Origin: Oscillospiraceae bacterium | GTDB lineage: Bacteria > Bacillota > Clostridia > Oscillospirales > Ruminococcaceae | Reading direction: 5' to 3' | Assembly (NCBI GenBank): GCA_016291435.1 | Contig: JAEEXH010000005.1 | Location: forward strand, 1 to 64,000 | DNA: 64,000 nucleotides | Shown here: positions 41,106-61,625 of the stretch, in pieces | Layout of the letters: every line of letters starts with the position of its first letter | Position numbering within the stretch: the stretch's first letter is position 1 | The notes under the pieces: generated by a model | Seen by the model: the letters and a program-made list of their open reading frames with translations, nothing else | Told to the model about the DNA's origin: nothing | Database searches by the model: none | Made by a program: the position numbers and the translations under genes

Positions 41106-42032
41106 ATGAGCAAGCAGCAAAGCTTCCATTCCAATCTCGCAAAGCGCAGAAAGGCGCTGCATCTCACGCAGGAACAGCTTGCACAGAGAATGAATGTCTC
41201 CCCGCAGGCTGTGTCGAAATGGGAAAAAAGCAGCTACCCCGACGCCGAGCAGCTCCCGAAGCTCGCCGCAGCGCTGAACACATCACTGGACACACTCTTC
41301 GGTCTCCCCGCGCAAAACGCGGAGTCCGACCCCGTGCAGAGCATCAGTGCAGCGCTGCACAGCCTGCCGCCGGAGGAACGCCCGGAGCTCATCGAGCGGC
41401 TGTTTTATGCGATTATCTGCGCCTATCAGCCAGCCGCAGAATCCTACGGCGCAAAGCTCGGCAGGAGCTTTGAGCGCGAGACCTACGCACTTCTGCATAC
41501 CGATCATGAGATTGCGCTCTCGCGGCTCAATCCCGATCAGCGCTACTGCCTCTACATTGAGAAGCCGGTGCAGGGCATCGCTGCATATTTGCAGGATACC
41601 GTCGGCATCGTGCGGCTCATGCGCACACTCGGCGATGAGGATGCCATCCGCATCATCAAGTATATCGCCGGGCGCGGCAGAAACAAGCTGTTCTTTGTCT
41701 CACGGCTCGCAGAGCAGCTTCAGATTCCCGAGGAAAACGTACAGAAGGTCATGAACCGGCTCGACCGCTTCGGTCTTGTCTGGCGCATGGCTGCCGACAC
41801 GGGCGATGACGCAGAGATTATCTACGGCTACACCCACAGCCCCGCACTCGCAGGCATTCTCGTGCTTGCACAGTCCATCTGCAATTATCTGCAATTCTGC
41901 GATCCGATCGTCTCTCATTTCAACTGGGGCTCGATGCAGGACCGCACAAACGGCAATCCGGACCGTGTCCCGCAGGTCTCCGGCTGGGACACCGATGAAA
42001 TCTCAGAAGAAATCAGGGGGAACTCACAATGA
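41106..42032 (+). CDS. XRE-family HTH transcriptional regulator with C-terminal winged-helix-like region
   Basis: LAKRRKALHLTQEQLAQRMNVSPQAVSKWEKSSYPDAEQLPKLAAALNTSLDTLFGL. Confidence 0.9.
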   Translation: MSKQQSFHSNLAKRRKALHLTQEQLAQRMNVSPQAVSKWEKSSYPDAEQLPKLAAALNTSLDTLFGLPAQNAESDPVQSISAALHSLPPEERPELIERLFYAIICAYQPAAESYGAKLGRSFERETYALLHTDHEIALSRLNPDQRYCLYIEKPVQGIAAYLQDTVGIVRLMRTLGDEDAIRIIKYIAGRGRNKLFFVSRLAEQLQIPEENVQKVMNRLDRFGLVWRMAADTGDDAEIIYGYTHSPALAGILVLAQSICNYLQFCDPIVSHFNWGSMQDRTNGNPDRVPQVSGWDTDEISEEIRGNSQ

Positions 42033-44254
42033 AAATCATGAAGCAGTCCATCGCATTTCTGGCAGCGCTCGTGCTGGTCTCTTCGGCAACTCTGCCCGCA
42101 CTCCCGACCGCAGCAGCCGGCAGCTATGATATGGCTGTCACGGTCGATCTCTCCGGCAGCGGCAAACCGATCAGCCCGTATATCTACGGCATCAACGAAT
42201 ACGGGCATCAGGAGGATCTCAAGAACCTGCGCGTCAACGCGGTCCGTCAGGGCGGCAACCGCATGACCGGCTACAACTGGGAGAACAACGCCTCCAACGC
42301 CGGCGCCGACTGGAAGCACAGCTCCGACAACAACCTCTCGAAATCCGACGCACCCGCAGACTGCGTCCAGCAGCTCTCGAAAGAAGCGGAGAAATACGGC
42401 ATCGGCTACAAGATGACCACGCTCCAGCTCGCAGGCTATGTCTCCGCGGATAAGAACGGCAGTGTCTCTGAGGCGGAAGCTGCGCCCTCCGACCGCTGGA
42501 ACGAAGTAAAGGTCACAAAGGGCAGCGCCTTCGCCGATGAGCCCGATCTCACCGACGGCACCGTCTACATGGATGAATATGTCAACTACATCATCAACAA
42601 GCTCGGCGATTCGCAGTCGAAGACCGGCATTCAGGGCTATTCGCTCGACAACGAACCCGCGCTCTGGAGCGGCACGCATCCCCGCATTCATCCGCAGCCT
42701 GTCGGCATGAAGGAACTCAGCGACAAGTCTATTGAGGTCGCATCGGCCGTCAAGAAGCTCGACCCGAATGCAGAGATCTTCGGACCTGCACTCTACGGCT
42801 ACACCGCCTTTGATCACCTCGCAGACAATGACAGCAGCACCGAATGGGAGACGCTCAAATCTGCCGGCGGCTATCACTGGTATCTCGACTATTATCTTGA
42901 TACCATGAAGCAGGCATCCGACAAAGCGGGGGTCCGTCTGCTCGATGTACTCGATATCCACTATTATTCCGAATCCTGCCGCAACGGAACAGAGGACAGA
43001 CTCCAGTCCGTCCGCACGCTCTATGAAAAGGGCTTTGTCGAGAACAGCTGGATCGGACAGTGGTGCCAGACAAATATCCCGATCCTGCCGACTGTACAGA
43101 ACTCGATCGACACCTATTTCCCCGGCACGAAGCTCGCGATCACGGAATACAATTTCGGCGGCGAGGATGAGCCCTCCGGCGCCATCGCGCAGGCTGAGGC
43201 CCTCGGCTGCTATGCAGATGCCAATGTCTATTTCGCATCGCTCTGGGGCGGCAGCGAATACATCCTCTCCGGCATCAATCTCTATACAAATTACGACGGC
43301 AAGGGCGGCGCATTCGGCGAAACGCTGATGCCGACAACCACCGGGGATGTCTCGAAGTCTAGCGCATACGCGGCGCAGAACAAGGATGCCTCCACCGTCA
43401 CAGTCATGGTCACGAACAAGAGCCTGACAGACAGCGAAGCAGCCGTCATTTCGCTGAAGGGCGCGAAGAAATCCTACAAGAAGGCAGCAGTCTACGCCGT
43501 GACCGCAGGCTCGCCTGAGATCAAACTGATTGACACCGTTGATGTGAGCGGCGACAAGCTGACTGTCAATCTCCCGGCATACTGTGCGGCAATGGTTGTC
43601 ATCTCCGACGATGCGAACGCATTTGACGGCGCACAGCAGGAGGAAAAGGTCGAGAAGACCGCTGTCTACGATGATCCGATGAGCATGATCAACGAAAACG
43701 GCTATGTCGAGATCCCGATCACCGATCCTGAACACCTCAAGAAAATCGTCATCACCGGCGATGCGACATCCCGTCTCGGCTCCTCCTGGGGCAGTGCAGG
43801 CTGCGCGGTCTGCATCAATGCTGTTGCAGAGGACGGCACAAAGTTCTGGACGAGCAAGGGCTATTCGATCAAGCTCGGCAGCGGCTCCAGCGCGACAGTG
43901 AACTTCGACGGCACCCTCACCAATAAGGAGGAGGAAGTCAGTGCGGTCGTTGCGGACGGCAAGGTCGAGCTTCAGCAGTGGTGGGATTCCTCCGAGAAAA
44001 AGCAGGAGGGCGACGAGGAATACGATATCACCGTGAAATACACGAAGGTCGAGGTCATCTATGAGTATTCCGGCACATCGCTGCGCGGAGATGTCAATAA
44101 GGACGGCAGCTTCGATCTCGCGGATCTGGTCGCGATGCAGAAATACCTGCTCGCTTCCGGCACACTCGCAGACTGGGAAGCAGGCGATTTCTTGGGCGAC
44201 GGCAAGCTGAACGCAAAGGATCTGTCGATGATGAAGCGGGAACTGCTGAAATAA
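42029..44254 (+). CDS. Glycoside hydrolase family 44 enzyme with CBM-like module and C-terminal type I dockerin (cellulosomal)
   Basis: Signal peptide; ISPYIYGINEYG...LRVNAVRQGGNRMTGYNWENNASNAGADW; dockerin repeats GDVNKDGSFDLADLVAMQKYLL and GDFLGDGKLNAKDLSMMKRELL. Confidence 0.9.
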   Translation: MKIMKQSIAFLAALVLVSSATLPALPTAAAGSYDMAVTVDLSGSGKPISPYIYGINEYGHQEDLKNLRVNAVRQGGNRMTGYNWENNASNAGADWKHSSDNNLSKSDAPADCVQQLSKEAEKYGIGYKMTTLQLAGYVSADKNGSVSEAEAAPSDRWNEVKVTKGSAFADEPDLTDGTVYMDEYVNYIINKLGDSQSKTGIQGYSLDNEPALWSGTHPRIHPQPVGMKELSDKSIEVASAVKKLDPNAEIFGPALYGYTAFDHLADNDSSTEWETLKSAGGYHWYLDYYLDTMKQASDKAGVRLLDVLDIHYYSESCRNGTEDRLQSVRTLYEKGFVENSWIGQWCQTNIPILPTVQNSIDTYFPGTKLAITEYNFGGEDEPSGAIAQAEALGCYADANVYFASLWGGSEYILSGINLYTNYDGKGGAFGETLMPTTTGDVSKSSAYAAQNKDASTVTVMVTNKSLTDSEAAVISLKGAKKSYKKAAVYAVTAGSPEIKLIDTVDVSGDKLTVNLPAYCAAMVVISDDANAFDGAQQEEKVEKTAVYDDPMSMINENGYVEIPITDPEHLKKIVITGDATSRLGSSWGSAGCAVCINAVAEDGTKFWTSKGYSIKLGSGSSATVNFDGTLTNKEEEVSAVVADGKVELQQWWDSSEKKQEGDEEYDITVKYTKVEVIYEYSGTSLRGDVNKDGSFDLADLVAMQKYLLASGTLADWEAGDFLGDGKLNAKDLSMMKRELLK

Positions 44255-53528: not shown

Positions 53529-54095
53529 CTATAAACCAAGTGCATATCCTGCGATAATGCCGATAACAGCAGAAATACCTATGATCGCTATGGGGTGCAG
53601 CTTTTTGAACGCAAGCACAGCACCGAGGGAGAATATGCCGAGAGAGAGCCAAAAGCCTGCACCTGAGAAAACCGCAGTCTGTATGCCGTTTGGAAAGAAA
53701 ACCGTCATTCCCACAGACAGAAACGCAGCCCCGATCAGACCGATCACCGCTGGACGCAGACCGTACATTACGCCGTCAACGGCACGGCTTTTTCGGAATT
53801 TCTCATAGAACTTCGCTACAATCAATATGATCACAAAGGACGGCAGGACAACGCCGAGCGTTGCACTCACAGCCCCGAACACGCCGCCGGTGCGAATGCC
53901 GACAAATGTTGCCATATTGATCGCAAGCGGCCCCGGTGTGCTTTCGCTCACAGCAATGAAGTCCACTACCTCAGCCTGTGTGAGCCAGCCGTGATGCTCG
54001 ACTTCGCTTTGGATCAGAGGAAGCATTGCATAACCGCCGCCGAACGTGAACGTCCCGATCTTCAGAAAGGTCAGGAAAAGCTCGATCCATATCAT
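53529..54095 (-). CDS. Chromate transporter family (short-chain ChrA) protein
   Basis: LKIGTFTFGGGYAMLPLIQSEV...AVSESTPGPLAINMATFVGIRTGG. Confidence 0.9.
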   Translation of the reverse strand: MIWIELFLTFLKIGTFTFGGGYAMLPLIQSEVEHHGWLTQAEVVDFIAVSESTPGPLAINMATFVGIRTGGVFGAVSATLGVVLPSFVIILIVAKFYEKFRKSRAVDGVMYGLRPAVIGLIGAAFLSVGMTVFFPNGIQTAVFSGAGFWLSLGIFSLGAVLAFKKLHPIAIIGISAVIGIIAGYALGL

Positions 54096-54640
54096 AGCTT
54101 GTCCTCCTTCCTGAACAGCAGCGACCATACAAGCCCGAACACTGCACAGCCGATGATAACGAACACTGCATCTATTTTCAGAAAAGCCGTCAGCACCAGT
54201 GCCGCTGCCATGATAACATAGGAGACAGCGTGCTTTTTCGTTGCCATGAACATGGTATAGACCGCTTTGAGTATCAGGGCGAGAACGCCTGCACGGATAC
54301 CCATAAATGCGTACTGTACAGCTCTTGACTCCTGAAAGGCTTTCAGGATAAAAGAAATAAGCGAGATGATCAGGAATGACGGCAGCACCACACCCAGCGT
54401 TGCACAGACAGCACCGAACGTTCCGGCAGTGCGGCTGCCAACAAACGTAGCCGCATTGATCGCCACCGGGCCCGGTGTAGACTCTGCGATCGCCACGACC
54501 TCCAGTATATCGTCCTCATTCAGCCATTTTTTATTATCACAGACCTCACGCTGTATCAGCGGTATCATCGCATATCCACCGCCGAAAGTAAATGCGCCGA
54601 TCTTCATGAAGGTCAGGAACAGATCAAGTTGTTTGTTCAT
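54092..54640 (-). CDS. Chromate transporter family (short-chain ChrA) protein, paired paralogue
   Basis: MKIGAFTFGGGYAMIPLIQREV...AIAESTPGPVAINAATFVGSRTAG; overlaps its partner. Confidence 0.9.
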   Translation of the reverse strand: MNKQLDLFLTFMKIGAFTFGGGYAMIPLIQREVCDNKKWLNEDDILEVVAIAESTPGPVAINAATFVGSRTAGTFGAVCATLGVVLPSFLIISLISFILKAFQESRAVQYAFMGIRAGVLALILKAVYTMFMATKKHAVSYVIMAAALVLTAFLKIDAVFVIIGCAVFGLVWSLLFRKEDKL

Positions 54641-54775
54641 AGAGTCACCCTGATTATTATACCACAATGATAGATTCGTGTCAATCTTCAACTGCTTGCA
54701 AAGCAGACAGTTCTTATGCTTACTACCGCCCTCCTGATTATAGGACGAAGTCGGTGGAATAACCGAATCCATACA

Positions 54776-54812
54776 CAAAGCGTCCTGTTCACACGGGGCG
54801 CTTTGCTTTTTG
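54776..54812 (+). terminator. Terminator-like hairpin downstream of the right direct repeat (possible displaced lysS terminator)
   Basis: CAAAGCGTCC / GGGGCGCTTTG then CTTTTTG. Confidence 0.75.
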
Positions 54813-54895
54813 TTCAGAATGCCCGCTTCGCGCTTGCGTTTTTATGCAATATATGATATAATAAAGAGATGTTAAATTACGGAAGGAAGGATCAC

Positions 54896-56032
54896 ATGTC
54901 GGTCTATCTTGACAATGCGGCGACCACAAAGCCCTGCAAGGCATGCACAGACGCAATGCTCGCCGCCATGACCGAAAACTACGGCAACCCGTCGTCGCTG
55001 CACACGATGGGGCTGGATGCCGAACGCACAGTCGATACTGCAAGAAAACAAATCGCCGCGGCACTGCACTGCGATGCATCCGCGCTGACCTTTACCTCGG
55101 GCGCCACGGAGAGCAATCACCTTGCGCTGCGCGGGGCAGCCGCCGTTTACGGCAAACGCAAACGGCGCATTGTCGCAAGTGCGGTCGAGCACGCATGTGT
55201 CCGCGGAGCGCTCGCTCTGCTGGAAGAAGAGGGATTTGAGGTAATCCGCATCTCGCCGCGCGAAAACGGCGTCTTCGATCCCGCAGATTTCCTCGCCGCC
55301 GTCGATGACAACACATGTCTTGTCACGATGATGCTGGTCAACAACGAGACGGGTGCAATCCTGCCTGTCGGGGAGGTTTTCTCCGCAGTCAAGCGCGATC
55401 ATCCGCAGGTGATTACGCACACGGATGCCGTGCAGGGATTTCTGAAAATCCCGTTCACGCCGGAGAAGCTCTGCGCCGACCTGCTGACCGTCAGCGGGCA
55501 CAAGGTTCACGCATGCAAGGGTGTCGGCGCGCTGTATCACAAGAAGGGCATCCGCCTGAAACCGCTCCTCACGGGCGGCGAGCAGGAGGGCGGTCTCCGC
55601 GCCGGTACAGAATCCGTGCCGTTGATTGCGGGATTCGGCGCTGCTGCCGCATCTCTCAGCGCAACCGTTTCAGCGCGTACTGAGACCGTCCGTGCTCTGC
55701 GCACCGCCGCAATCGAACAGCTCAGCGCAGTCGGGGGCGTCACGATCCAGTCCCCGGAGGACGGCTCCCCCTATATCCTCAGCATCTCGGTGAAGGGGCT
55801 GCGCTCAGAGACCGTGCTGCACTTCCTCGCAGAACGCGGCATATTTGTCTCCAGCGGCTCGGCATGCTCCAAAGGGAAGCAGAGCGGTGTCTTACAGGAA
55901 TTCGGCATCCGGCAGAATGCGGCAGACAGCACGCTGCGGCTGAGCTTCTGCGCAGAGAATACCGCCGCGGACATTGCTGCACTTGCTGCGGGCATCCGGG
56001 ATGCGCAGGCAAGACTGGTACACAAAAGATAA
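54896..56032 (+). CDS. Cysteine desulfurase (NifS/IscS family)
   Basis: VYLDNAATTKPC, FTSGATESNHLAL, SGHKVHACKGVGALY, SSGSACSKGKQS. Confidence 0.93.
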   Translation: MSVYLDNAATTKPCKACTDAMLAAMTENYGNPSSLHTMGLDAERTVDTARKQIAAALHCDASALTFTSGATESNHLALRGAAAVYGKRKRRIVASAVEHACVRGALALLEEEGFEVIRISPRENGVFDPADFLAAVDDNTCLVTMMLVNNETGAILPVGEVFSAVKRDHPQVITHTDAVQGFLKIPFTPEKLCADLLTVSGHKVHACKGVGALYHKKGIRLKPLLTGGEQEGGLRAGTESVPLIAGFGAAAASLSATVSARTETVRALRTAAIEQLSAVGGVTIQSPEDGSPYILSISVKGLRSETVLHFLAERGIFVSSGSACSKGKQSGVLQEFGIRQNAADSTLRLSFCAENTAADIAALAAGIRDAQARLVHKR

Positions 56033-56074
56033 CTCACGCAGAATCGTATTTTTCAGAAAGGAAGTGATGCCCCC

Positions 56075-58654
56075 GTGAAACGGCTTACGCTCGGTCTCAT
56101 GGCGCATGTCGACTCCGGCAAAACCACACTTGCCGAAGCGCTGCTCTACCGCACCGGCGAGATCCGGAAGCTCGGCAGAGTGGATCGCGGCGATGCGTGG
56201 CTCGACACCGAAGCAATCGAAAAATCACGCGGCATCACGATATTTGCGCATCAGGCGCAGTTTCAGGCGGGCGAAACACAGTTCACGCTGCTGGATACTC
56301 CGGGACATGTAGACTTCTCCGCTGAGACTGAGCGCATCATGCAGGTGCTCGACTGCGCCGTGCTGGTCATCAGCGGCACCGACGGCGTGCAGAGCCACAC
56401 CCGCACACTCTGGCGGCTGCTCGAACGCTACGGCATCCCGGTCATCCTATTTGTCAATAAAATGGATCTTTCCGACCGCACCGAAACCGCGCTCATACAG
56501 GAATTGCAGGGAAGACTCTCTGCTTCCTGCGTGCAGTTCGACAGCAGCCGCGAAGCGCTCTGCGAAAACGCCGCAACCTGCTCCGAAGCGCTCATGAACG
56601 CCTATCTGGACGGTGCGGAGATCACCGATGACATGCTTGCGGAGGCGGTCATGCGGCGGGAAATCTTCCCCTGCTGCTTTGGCTCTGCACGCACGCTGGA
56701 CGGCATCGGCAGGCTGCTTGAGATTCTGGACGCATACACCGCAGAGCCCCAGCATCCCGCAGAATTCGGTGCGCGTGTCTTCAAAATTTCCGTGGATGCA
56801 AAAGGCAGCCGTCTCACCTATCTGAAAATCTGCGGCGGCACGCTGCATAACCGCGACGAGCTCACATATACCGGCGCCGACCGCCAGCCGCACACCGAAA
56901 AGGTCACCGGCATCCGCTTTTATTCCGGCGCAAAGTTTGTCCCCGCAGATGCCGCCGAAGCAGGCGCCGTCTGTGCAGTGACAGGTCTCACTGCTGCCTA
57001 TGCCGGTATGGGGCTCGGCATTACGCCGGATGCGGAGGATGCTATGCTCACGCCGGTCATGCGCTATCAGGTGCTGCTCCCGGAGGACATTGACGCGCCC
57101 GCCGCACTCGCACAGCTCCGTCAGCTCGAAGCGGAGGATCCGCAGCTCCATGTCACATGGGAAGCGCAGAGCCGCAGCATCTATGTGCAGCTCATGGGAG
57201 CCGTGCAGCTTGAGGTGCTGTCACAGCAGGTCGCCGACCGCTTCGGCTATGCGATCCGCTTTGACAGCGGCATTGTCACCTATCGCGAAACGATCCGCGA
57301 AGCCGTTGAAGGCATCGGGCACTATGAGCCCCTGCGCCACTACGCAGAGGTACATCTCATCCTGACGCCGCTCCCGCCCGGCAGCGGTCTGCAATTTGAT
57401 ACCAGATGCAGCGAGGATCTGCTCGACCGCAACTGGCAGCGGCTCATTCTCACGCATTTGCAGGAAAAAACACATATCGGCGCGCTGACAGGCTCTCCGA
57501 TCACCGACATGAAGATCACGCTGGCGAGCGGAAAAGCGCATATCAAGCATACCGAGGGCGGCGATTTCCGGCAGGCAACCTACCGCGCCGTGCGGCAGGG
57601 GCTGCGTTCTGCGGAGAGCGTGCTGCTGGAACCCTATTACAGCTTCACACTGGAGCTCCCCGCGGATGCCGTCGGCAGGGCGATGACCGACATCACGCAG
57701 CGTGCGGGCAGCTTCCAGCCCCCGGAGATCTTCGGCGAACATGCCGTAATCACCGGCAGTGCGCCGGTCGCGACGATGAACGACTATGCTGCCGAGGTTC
57801 TGAGCTACACGAAGGGGCGCGGCAGTCTGACGCTGTCCGTCAGCGGCTATCTACCCTGCCACAACGCGGAGGAGATTATCGCGCAGATCGGCTATGACGC
57901 AGACAGTGACCTTGAAAACAGCGCAGATTCGGTTTTCTGTGCGCACGGTGCAGGCTTTCTGGTCGGCTGGCAGGAAGTGCCGATGTATATGCATCTGCCT
58001 GCCGAGCTCCCGCACCGCTATGACTTTGAGGAAGCGGTCGAAGCGCCCGCAGAGCATGTGCGCCGCGGACCCATGCCCGATGCAAGCGACGAGGAGCTTA
58101 TGGCGATCTATGAGCGCACCTACGGCAGAATTGCGCGGGATGAGCGCAAGGCAATGCGCCGCAACAAGACCGCCGAATCGCTTGACAGCAGCCATGTCAA
58201 GGTTCCCGATGCGCCGAAAACAGAATATCTGCTGGTCGACGGCTACAACATCATTTTCGCCTGGGATTCCCTGAAAGCACTTGCGGCAGATTCTCTTGAT
58301 CATGCACGGGAACTGCTCATGCATCTGCTGATGAACTATCAGGGCTATAAACAGTGTGAGGTCATTCTGGTGTTCGATGCCTACAAATGCAAAGGGCACG
58401 GCGAGGAGACCGAGCAGCACGGCAACATCACTGTTGTCTACACGAGGGAGGCGGAGACCGCCGATTCCTATATCGAGCGCGTATCGAAGAAGCTCATCCG
58501 CGGCAACCGTGTGCGCGTTGCGACCTCGGATGCACTCGAGCAGCTCATCATTCTCGGCAACGGTGCCATGCGCATCTCCGCACGCGAATTTGAACTGGAA
58601 ATGCGCGCAGTCGAAGCAGAGATCCGGCAGCAAATCAACCGGACAGGACAATGA
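56075..58654 (+). CDS. Tet(M)-like ribosomal-protection/EF-G-like GTPase fused to C-terminal YacP/Rae1-like NYN domain
   Basis: G1 AHVDSGKT, RGIT, DTPGHVDF, NKMD; EF-G-like domains; C-term from ~58221: YLLVDGYNIIFAWDSLK...VILVFDAYKCKG...YTREAETADSYIERV...VRVATSDALEQLIILGNGAMRISAREFE. GTG start. Confidence 0.9.
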   Translation: MKRLTLGLMAHVDSGKTTLAEALLYRTGEIRKLGRVDRGDAWLDTEAIEKSRGITIFAHQAQFQAGETQFTLLDTPGHVDFSAETERIMQVLDCAVLVISGTDGVQSHTRTLWRLLERYGIPVILFVNKMDLSDRTETALIQELQGRLSASCVQFDSSREALCENAATCSEALMNAYLDGAEITDDMLAEAVMRREIFPCCFGSARTLDGIGRLLEILDAYTAEPQHPAEFGARVFKISVDAKGSRLTYLKICGGTLHNRDELTYTGADRQPHTEKVTGIRFYSGAKFVPADAAEAGAVCAVTGLTAAYAGMGLGITPDAEDAMLTPVMRYQVLLPEDIDAPAALAQLRQLEAEDPQLHVTWEAQSRSIYVQLMGAVQLEVLSQQVADRFGYAIRFDSGIVTYRETIREAVEGIGHYEPLRHYAEVHLILTPLPPGSGLQFDTRCSEDLLDRNWQRLILTHLQEKTHIGALTGSPITDMKITLASGKAHIKHTEGGDFRQATYRAVRQGLRSAESVLLEPYYSFTLELPADAVGRAMTDITQRAGSFQPPEIFGEHAVITGSAPVATMNDYAAEVLSYTKGRGSLTLSVSGYLPCHNAEEIIAQIGYDADSDLENSADSVFCAHGAGFLVGWQEVPMYMHLPAELPHRYDFEEAVEAPAEHVRRGPMPDASDEELMAIYERTYGRIARDERKAMRRNKTAESLDSSHVKVPDAPKTEYLLVDGYNIIFAWDSLKALAADSLDHARELLMHLLMNYQGYKQCEVILVFDAYKCKGHGEETEQHGNITVVYTREAETADSYIERVSKKLIRGNRVRVATSDALEQLIILGNGAMRISAREFELEMRAVEAEIRQQINRTGQ

Positions 58655-60413: not shown

Positions 60414-61625
60414 ATGCGTGAGATCATTCTTGCAAAATACGGCGAAATGGCGCTCAAGGGTGCCAACCGCATCACCTTTGAGGACGCGCTGCTGCGCAAT
60501 ATCCGATTCCGCTTAAAGCATATCGGAAAATTCAGCTATGCAAAGGCGCAGTCCACCATCTATATCATCCCGGAAACAGAGAGCGACGAGGAAGCGGGCG
60601 AACTCCTTGCAGCCGCAATGCCGCGTCTCAAAAAGATCTTCGGCATCGCAGCGCTTGCCCGTGCGATCACATGCGAAAAGGATTTTGCCGACATCTCCGC
60701 ACGCGCAGTCCCCTATCTGCATGATGCGCTGACTGCCGCAAAAACATTCAAGGTCGAGGCAAAGCGCGCAGACAAGGCATTTCCGATGAAGTCGCCGCAG
60801 ATCTGTGCAGAGCTCGGCGGCATCCTGCTCGAAGCCTATCCGCATCTGACGGTCAATGTGACCGAGCCGGATGTGACCGTCACCGTCGAGATCCGCGACA
60901 CAAATGCCTACGTACATGCCGCACGCGAAAAGGGCGCAGGCGGTCTGCCAGTCGGCACAGCGGGCAATGCCATGCTGCTGCTCTCGGGCGGCATCGACTC
61001 CCCGGTCGCGGCATACATGATGGCAAAGCGCGGTCTGCGCATCTCGGCGATCCATTTCGCCAGCCCGCCTTACACCTCTGAGCGCGCACTGATGAAGGTG
61101 CAGACGCTGGTCGAAAAGCTGACGCCCTGGTGCGGAAGCATCGCATTCTATGTCGTGCCGTTCACGGAAATCCAGGAGGTGCTTGAGAAGAACTGCCCCG
61201 AGGAATTCTTCACGATCCTCATGCGCCGCCTGATGATGGAAATTGCACAGCGCATCTCCGAACGCGATTCCTGTGCTGCGATCATCACGGGCGAGAGTCT
61301 TGGGCAGGTCGCGAGCCAGACAATCGGCGCGCTCGCCTGCACGGATGCCGTCGCGCATATGCCGGTGCTGCGTCCGCTGATCGGCATGGACAAGACGGAA
61401 ATTGTCGAAATCGCACGCAAAATCGACACATTTGAGACATCTATCCTGCCCTACGAGGATTGCTGCACCGTCTTCACGCCCCGTCACCCGAAGCTGAGGC
61501 CGCGCCTGGATGAGGTCGAACAGATCCAGGCTGAGGTCGATTTTGCACCGCTCGTCGAGAAGGCGATCGAGGGCACAACCAAGAAGATCTACGCACAGCA
61601 TGTTTCCGAATCTCAGACATTCTGA
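60414..61625 (+). CDS. thiI: tRNA 4-thiouridine synthase ThiI
   Basis: THUMP region; LLLSGGIDSPVAAYMMAKRG PP-loop; ITGESLGQVASQT. Confidence 0.95.
   Translation: MREIILAKYGEMALKGANRITFEDALLRNIRFRLKHIGKFSYAKAQSTIYIIPETESDEEAGELLAAAMPRLKKIFGIAALARAITCEKDFADISARAVPYLHDALTAAKTFKVEAKRADKAFPMKSPQICAELGGILLEAYPHLTVNVTEPDVTVTVEIRDTNAYVHAAREKGAGGLPVGTAGNAMLLLSGGIDSPVAAYMMAKRGLRISAIHFASPPYTSERALMKVQTLVEKLTPWCGSIAFYVVPFTEIQEVLEKNCPEEFFTILMRRLMMEIAQRISERDSCAAIITGESLGQVASQTIGALACTDAVAHMPVLRPLIGMDKTEIVEIARKIDTFETSILPYEDCCTVFTPRHPKLRPRLDEVEQIQAEVDFAPLVEKAIEGTTKKIYAQHVSESQTF

Follow-up and report, generated by a model that had tools for sequence, protein, structure and literature searches.

The locus described here raises the question of what is accomplished by a single protein that joins a ribosome GTPase, of the type represented by elongation factor G (EF-G) and the tetracycline-protection (Tet) proteins, to Rae1, a nuclease that cuts mRNA. 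The protein is encoded in a gut-type Clostridia genome, that of an Oscillospiraceae bacterium (GenBank assembly GCA_016291435.1), from which we analyzed positions 1 to 64,000 of the forward strand of contig JAEEXH010000005.1; this whole stretch of 64,000 nucleotides is referred to below as the window. The gene (56075..58654, + strand) is one uninterrupted open reading frame (ORF) for 859 amino acids that begins with GTG and ends with TGA, and its likely ribosome-binding site, as judged from the sequence, is a GGAAG (56060..56064, +) located 10 bases 5' of the start. A preliminary description of the window had read the gene as a single frame in which a Tet(M)/EF-G-like GTPase is followed by a YacP/Rae1-like nuclease, and this two-domain make-up is borne out by Pfam matches that run from GTP_EFTU to EFG_C and then to NYN_YacP. 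Of the proteins with solved structures, TetM is the best match to residues 2-592 (7.5e-74) and Bacillus subtilis YacP/Rae1 to residues 718-856 (6.5e-27).

The combination of an EF-G/Tet-type GTPase and a YacP-like NYN domain within one Clostridia ORF places the gene among the clostridial Tet-NYN fusions, and its architecture is not new, having been known since 2015, when a YacP-like NYN RNase domain was reported as an acquisition by Tet proteins of ten clostridial species, for which a role related to resistance or in the cleavage of rRNA was proposed (Atkinson 2015, PMC4342817). Those fusions have the same two domains in the same bacterial group, with no structural difference that we could discern from the one in the window. 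What is new here is the breadth of the fusion's distribution, its near-exclusive replacement of free Rae1 and the invariance of both of its active sites, to which comparisons of sequence add a separation from the true Tet proteins and a likely origin of the nuclease in the operonic Rae1 lineage.

The Fusion Protein and Its Two Halves

The N-terminal EF-G/Tet-type GTPase (residues 4-597) is followed by an extension specific to the family, then by a disordered linker and finally by the Rae1/YacP NYN domain (residues 719-857); the coordinates of all these parts are on the + strand. The G domain (residues 4-222, 56084..56740; Pfam GTP_EFTU, 1.8e-49) carries the motifs G1 (AHVDSGKTT), G2 (RGITI), G3 (DTPGH) and G4 (NKMD) and is followed by domain II (residues 231-306, 56765..56992; EF-G_D2, 6.7e-07), domain III (residues 336-394, 57080..57256), domain IV (residues 401-513, 57275..57613; EFG_IV, 4.7e-18) and domain V (residues 516-597, 57620..57865; EFG_C, 2.6e-19), i.e., the layout of the Tet-type ribosomal protection proteins. 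Domain III reached 22 bits with Pfam EFG_III, under the cut-off of 27, and has the EF-G fold in the structural model, in which Foldseek matched the GTPase body to EF-G structures. The extension (residues 598-640, 57866..57994), which contains ...SVFCAHGAGFLVGWQEV..YMH, occurs in both fused and unfused relatives and was not found by sequence comparison in Tet(M/O/S/W) or EF-G.

The nuclease domain (58229..58645) scored 170 bits with Pfam NYN_YacP, for which the cut-off is 24.6, and the acidic residues that had been considered intact do have their counterparts in Rae1, D722, D768, D797 and D819 being aligned with D7, D53, D81 and D104, respectively. These four candidate catalytic residues are invariant in 90 of 90 aligned fusions and in 27 of 27 free copies. 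D7 and D81 are reportedly residues that were mutated in published work on Rae1. The P-loop lysine (K16) and the histidine of DTPGH (H78) are also invariant across the 90 fusions, and it appears from the strict conservation of each active site that both halves are under selection. In comparison to Rae1 of B. subtilis (PDB 5mq8, 5mq9), the fusion has in common the NYN domain, the four aspartates and the motifs that surround them, and differs in bearing a GTPase, in being without a C-terminal tail of ~29 residues and in lying outside the mrnC-rlmB-rae1-sigH operon.

The linker between the halves (residues 641-717, 57995..58225) is mostly disordered, ranges from 66 to 103 amino acids across the 90 fusions and is poorly conserved in sequence except at one helix (residues 672-683, 58088-58123). 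An AlphaFold2 model built on 46 fusion sequences (mean predicted local distance difference test score, pLDDT, of 80.6) has a confident EF-G-like body and a separate NYN domain, and residues 648-713 are mostly disordered, interrupted by the same helix; the least confident spot of domain IV is at residues 491-495. Modelled alone and without an alignment, the nuclease had a pLDDT of 50, which was uninformative.

Distribution and Replacement of Free Rae1

A homologue scan that used one genome per species confirmed 584 relatives, and at least 80 full-length fusions came from named records, including isolates of Ruminococcus flavefaciens (ND2009), R. callidus (ATCC 27760), Intestinimonas butyriciproducens, Caproicibacter fermentans and Gemmiger gallinarum. 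Together with the occurrence of several fusions on single-contig chromosomes, these homologues rule out a frameshift or a sequencing join of two separate ORFs, the artefact against which the preliminary description had cautioned. Among 391 sampled genomes of the same class (Clostridia), the GTPase family (E <= 1e-100) is present in 164, and at least 130 of the matches listed, in at least 129 genomes, continue into the NYN domain; in a phylum-wide sample the family was found in 30 of 399 genomes, about two thirds of them fused. Carried by about a third of the sampled Clostridia genomes, where it stands in for free Rae1, the fusion is a common core gene of this class.

A YacP domain is encoded by 249 of the 391 Clostridia genomes, and only five of these have two matches: one genome with two fusions, three with a second match below threshold and one (G330) with a fusion and a free copy. 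The best 150 YacP matches fall largely into frames of at least 840 amino acids (78 matches) or at most 220 (63 matches), and the nine of intermediate length presumably reflect contig ends or broken frames. The genome from which the window comes has exactly one YacP domain, that of the fusion, and encodes several further translational GTPases. Fused and free forms are almost mutually exclusive, and the fusion replaces free Rae1. Shared ancestry by itself could yield much of this exclusivity, which is therefore to be read as replacement within a lineage and not as repeated exclusion.

The evolutionary history of the two halves was examined in GTPase and NYN trees, both of them quick searches without bootstrap. 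In the GTPase tree, which largely tracks host taxonomy, all fused sequences form one clade (100 by the Shimodaira-Hasegawa-like approximate likelihood ratio test, SH-aLRT) together with one unfused gene from a Ligilactobacillus plasmid, which is perhaps the product of a later loss of the nuclease; unfused relatives of ~650 residues from Clostridium and others lie outside this clade, and Tet(M/O/S/W) are on a long separate branch. The NYN tree calls for a single change between free and fused, and one branch (support 83) sets all fused domains apart. A single fusion event is thus compatible with the trees, although quick searches of this kind do not prove it. Most of the free rae1 copies examined have an rlmB-like and an mrnC-like gene before them and a sigH-like gene after them, as in Bacillus (these sequences were inspected by eye). 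The free copies nearest to the fused domains are those of two genomes, G243 and G160, and that of G160 is still in the rlmB operon. The fused nuclease is likely to have been derived from the operonic Rae1 lineage. In G243 (L024, L127) the free NYN gene does not lie in the rlmB operon, and an unfused GTPase is encoded separately; the other genomes sampled from its family mostly carry the fusion, and the arrangement in G243 is possibly a split of it.

Two sorts of candidates for carriage on mobile elements were rejected. Records of 'Bacteriophage sp.' from metagenomes (H41 and H42, at L154 and L155) look like pieces of bacterial chromosome, the fusion being flanked there by genes for FeoB, MraW, a Glu/Gln-type tRNA synthetase and Sir2, and the sole plasmid case is a 518-kb Monoglobus replicon with secA nearby. 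PADLOC gave no match to an anti-phage defence system.

Relationship to the Tetracycline-Protection Proteins

The GTPase half has been described as Tet(M)-like, and this holds to the extent that it is of the EF-G/Tet type with its G motifs intact; it is not Tet(M), and it belongs to a separate, Tet-like subfamily, one branch of which, in Clostridium and others, is unfused. On the NCBIfam model tet_protect the fusion scored 404 bits, far from the cut-off of 775, as compared to 876 for a Tet(M) control, and fused and unfused relatives together scored 381-450. The tip of domain IV, which reads YYSPVSTPADF in Tet proteins, is AHxKHTEGGDF in the fusion's GTPase family, and in the window the tip loop (residues 486-499, GKAHIKHTEGGDFR, 57530..57571) has K491 aligned with Pro509 of Tet(M). 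This lysine is invariant in 46 aligned fusions, within a KHTEGGD loop. Domain IV of Tet(M) reaches the tetracycline pocket of the A site (PMC7456112), and of its residues it is Pro509 that overlaps with the tetracycline-binding site (PMC7456112; PMC8161019). In comparison to Tet(M) and Tet(O) (PDB 3j9y, 4v6v), the fusion has in common a five-domain EF-G-like body, ~29% identity and intact G motifs, and differs in its domain IV tip loop, the extra residues 598-640, the nuclease and a score under the Tet cut-off. The unfused Tet-like GTPases of ~650 amino acids from Clostridium and others (L123-L133) are mostly 42-49% identical to it over residues 2-642, have the KHT.GGD loop and the extension and are without a nuclease; several of their hosts have a free Rae1 and others have none. 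The RefSeq title of one fusion is 'translation factor GTPase family protein'.

The earlier statement that the fusion need not confer tetracycline resistance agrees with these observations. Because the score is so far under the cut-off and Pro509 is replaced within an invariant loop, tetracycline resistance is an unlikely role, though loop and score do not exclude resistance by another route. Whereas the fusions reported in 2015 were placed within Tet and a resistance mechanism was suggested for them (Atkinson 2015, PMC4342817), the present data favor a separate, non-resistance subfamily.

Proposed Function and Alternatives

With moderate confidence, we would read the fusion as a two-part translation factor in which the GTPase carries Rae1 to ribosomes for translation-dependent cleavage of mRNA. 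Rae1 is known to cleave mRNA in a translation-dependent manner (PMC10100781), and Tet-type proteins bind the A-site region through domain IV, with GTP hydrolysis apparently needed for their departure (PMC8161019). The GTPase half would bind where EF-G and Tet(M) bind, at the factor site of the ribosome, and keep the nuclease beside the A site. There should be no room in the A site for both the domain IV tip and the nuclease, so that they would compete for it and act in turn, an alternation that the flexible linker of 66-103 residues would permit. The GTPase may probe or clear the A site first, after which GTP hydrolysis or release would allow the nuclease, on its tether, to enter the site and cleave the mRNA there, so that decay of particular mRNAs would start during their translation. 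The fusion would then be a Rae1 with a built-in, GTP-controlled loader, i.e., a housekeeping factor of RNA decay and not a drug-resistance protein. More doubtfully, it may be a GTP-gated A-site ribonuclease in which the hydrolysis cycle times the cut by the tethered Rae1. Many gut Clostridia would then rely on it as their standard factor for translation-coupled mRNA decay, and in other Clostridia the unfused GTPase would be a separate partner to free Rae1. The preliminary description had proposed a GTP-driven factor that loads a nuclease onto stalled ribosomes; a Rae1-type nuclease delivered to the ribosome remains the best reading, while the words "stalled" and "rescue" find no specific support in the sequence.

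Other explanations can be given for the same protein. The GTPase might merely anchor or position the nuclease or serve its co-expression, with mRNA being cut outside the A site or the halves working independently, which would suit a long, disordered linker that is poorly conserved but for one helix, and a family in which unfused GTPases occur both with and without a separate Rae1. We consider this unlikely in view of the almost complete displacement of free Rae1 by the fusion and of the GTPase active site, whose invariance in the fusions argues that GTP turnover matters too. An action on rRNA or tRNA, in ribosome maturation or quality control, had been suggested for YacP-like NYN domains before the studies of Rae1 and for the fusions themselves (Atkinson 2015, PMC4342817), and free Rae1 does adjoin genes of the rRNA enzymes, rlmB and mrnC; it is nevertheless rather improbable, as the closest characterized relative, Rae1, cuts mRNA in dependence on translation (PMC10100781).

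Least probable is a ribosomal protection protein that adds RNase action to resistance against tetracycline or another drug. TetM is the best solved relative, a resistance role was proposed (Atkinson 2015, PMC4342817), and the unfused relative on a Ligilactobacillus salivarius megaplasmid (L148:7986-9920) is named by its record as a member of the TetM/TetW/TetO/TetS family. This plasmid gene, however, is itself under the tet_protect cut-off (381 bits), as is the fusion, and the invariant lysine at the Pro509 position, the long branch to Tet(M/O/S/W) in a tree that mostly follows host taxonomy, and a chromosomal core distribution with no mobile context all speak against resistance.

Several points weigh against delivery of Rae1 by the GTPase. 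Rae1 of Bacillus functions without such a GTPase. The two halves are not fixed relative to each other in the AlphaFold2 model, given the linker and an overall predicted template modelling score (pTM) of 0.62. Two near-complete genomes of the window genome's own family (G142 and G370) have neither a YacP domain nor a close relative of the GTPase, so that the fusion gene is dispensable in some lineages, and unfused GTPases of the same family are encoded by genomes that have no YacP domain at all (G207, G334 and G029), from which it follows that the GTPase plays a role independent of Rae1. The nuclease in the window, like that of 56 of the 90 fusions, is without the ~29-residue tail of free Rae1, and an R166P change in B. 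subtilis Rae1 resembled loss of function (PMC6613710); as a speculation, the loss of the tail would fit a passing of ribosome binding to the GTPase. The literature searched, whose coverage of papers on Rae1 was partial, contained no functional characterization of the fusion and no biochemical or genetic data for any of its members.

The fusion joins two questions, namely the route by which Rae1 comes to the A site and the role of the chromosomal "Tet-like" GTPases of gut Clostridia. It predicts that the Tet-like GTPase is a loader of Rae1, which can be tested on a single protein, and genes of the fusion type that are named by homology for tetracycline resistance are probably housekeeping genes that ought to be left out of resistance counts in gut metagenomes.

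Gene Neighborhoods

The fusions have no conserved neighbor, and the mrnC-rlmB-rae1-sigH context is not kept. As a candidate for an operon partner, the largest cluster of neighboring genes (ABC-transporter-like) was rejected, being found at only 8 of 76 loci and in scattered positions. The order in the window is cysteine desulfurase, fusion, S41 peptidase and thiI, which was not found at the other fusion loci compared. The cysteine desulfurase gene (54869-56032) and thiI (60414-61625) resemble a tRNA-thiolation pair, and the gene with the S41-peptidase domain lies between the fusion and thiI. Farther upstream are two adjacent chromate-transporter genes (53529-54778, -) with one Chromate_transp domain each, i.e., of the paired half-size type, and a gene for a glycoside hydrolase of family 44 with a dockerin (42029-44254, +), which suggests a cellulosome-forming, Ruminococcus-like host.
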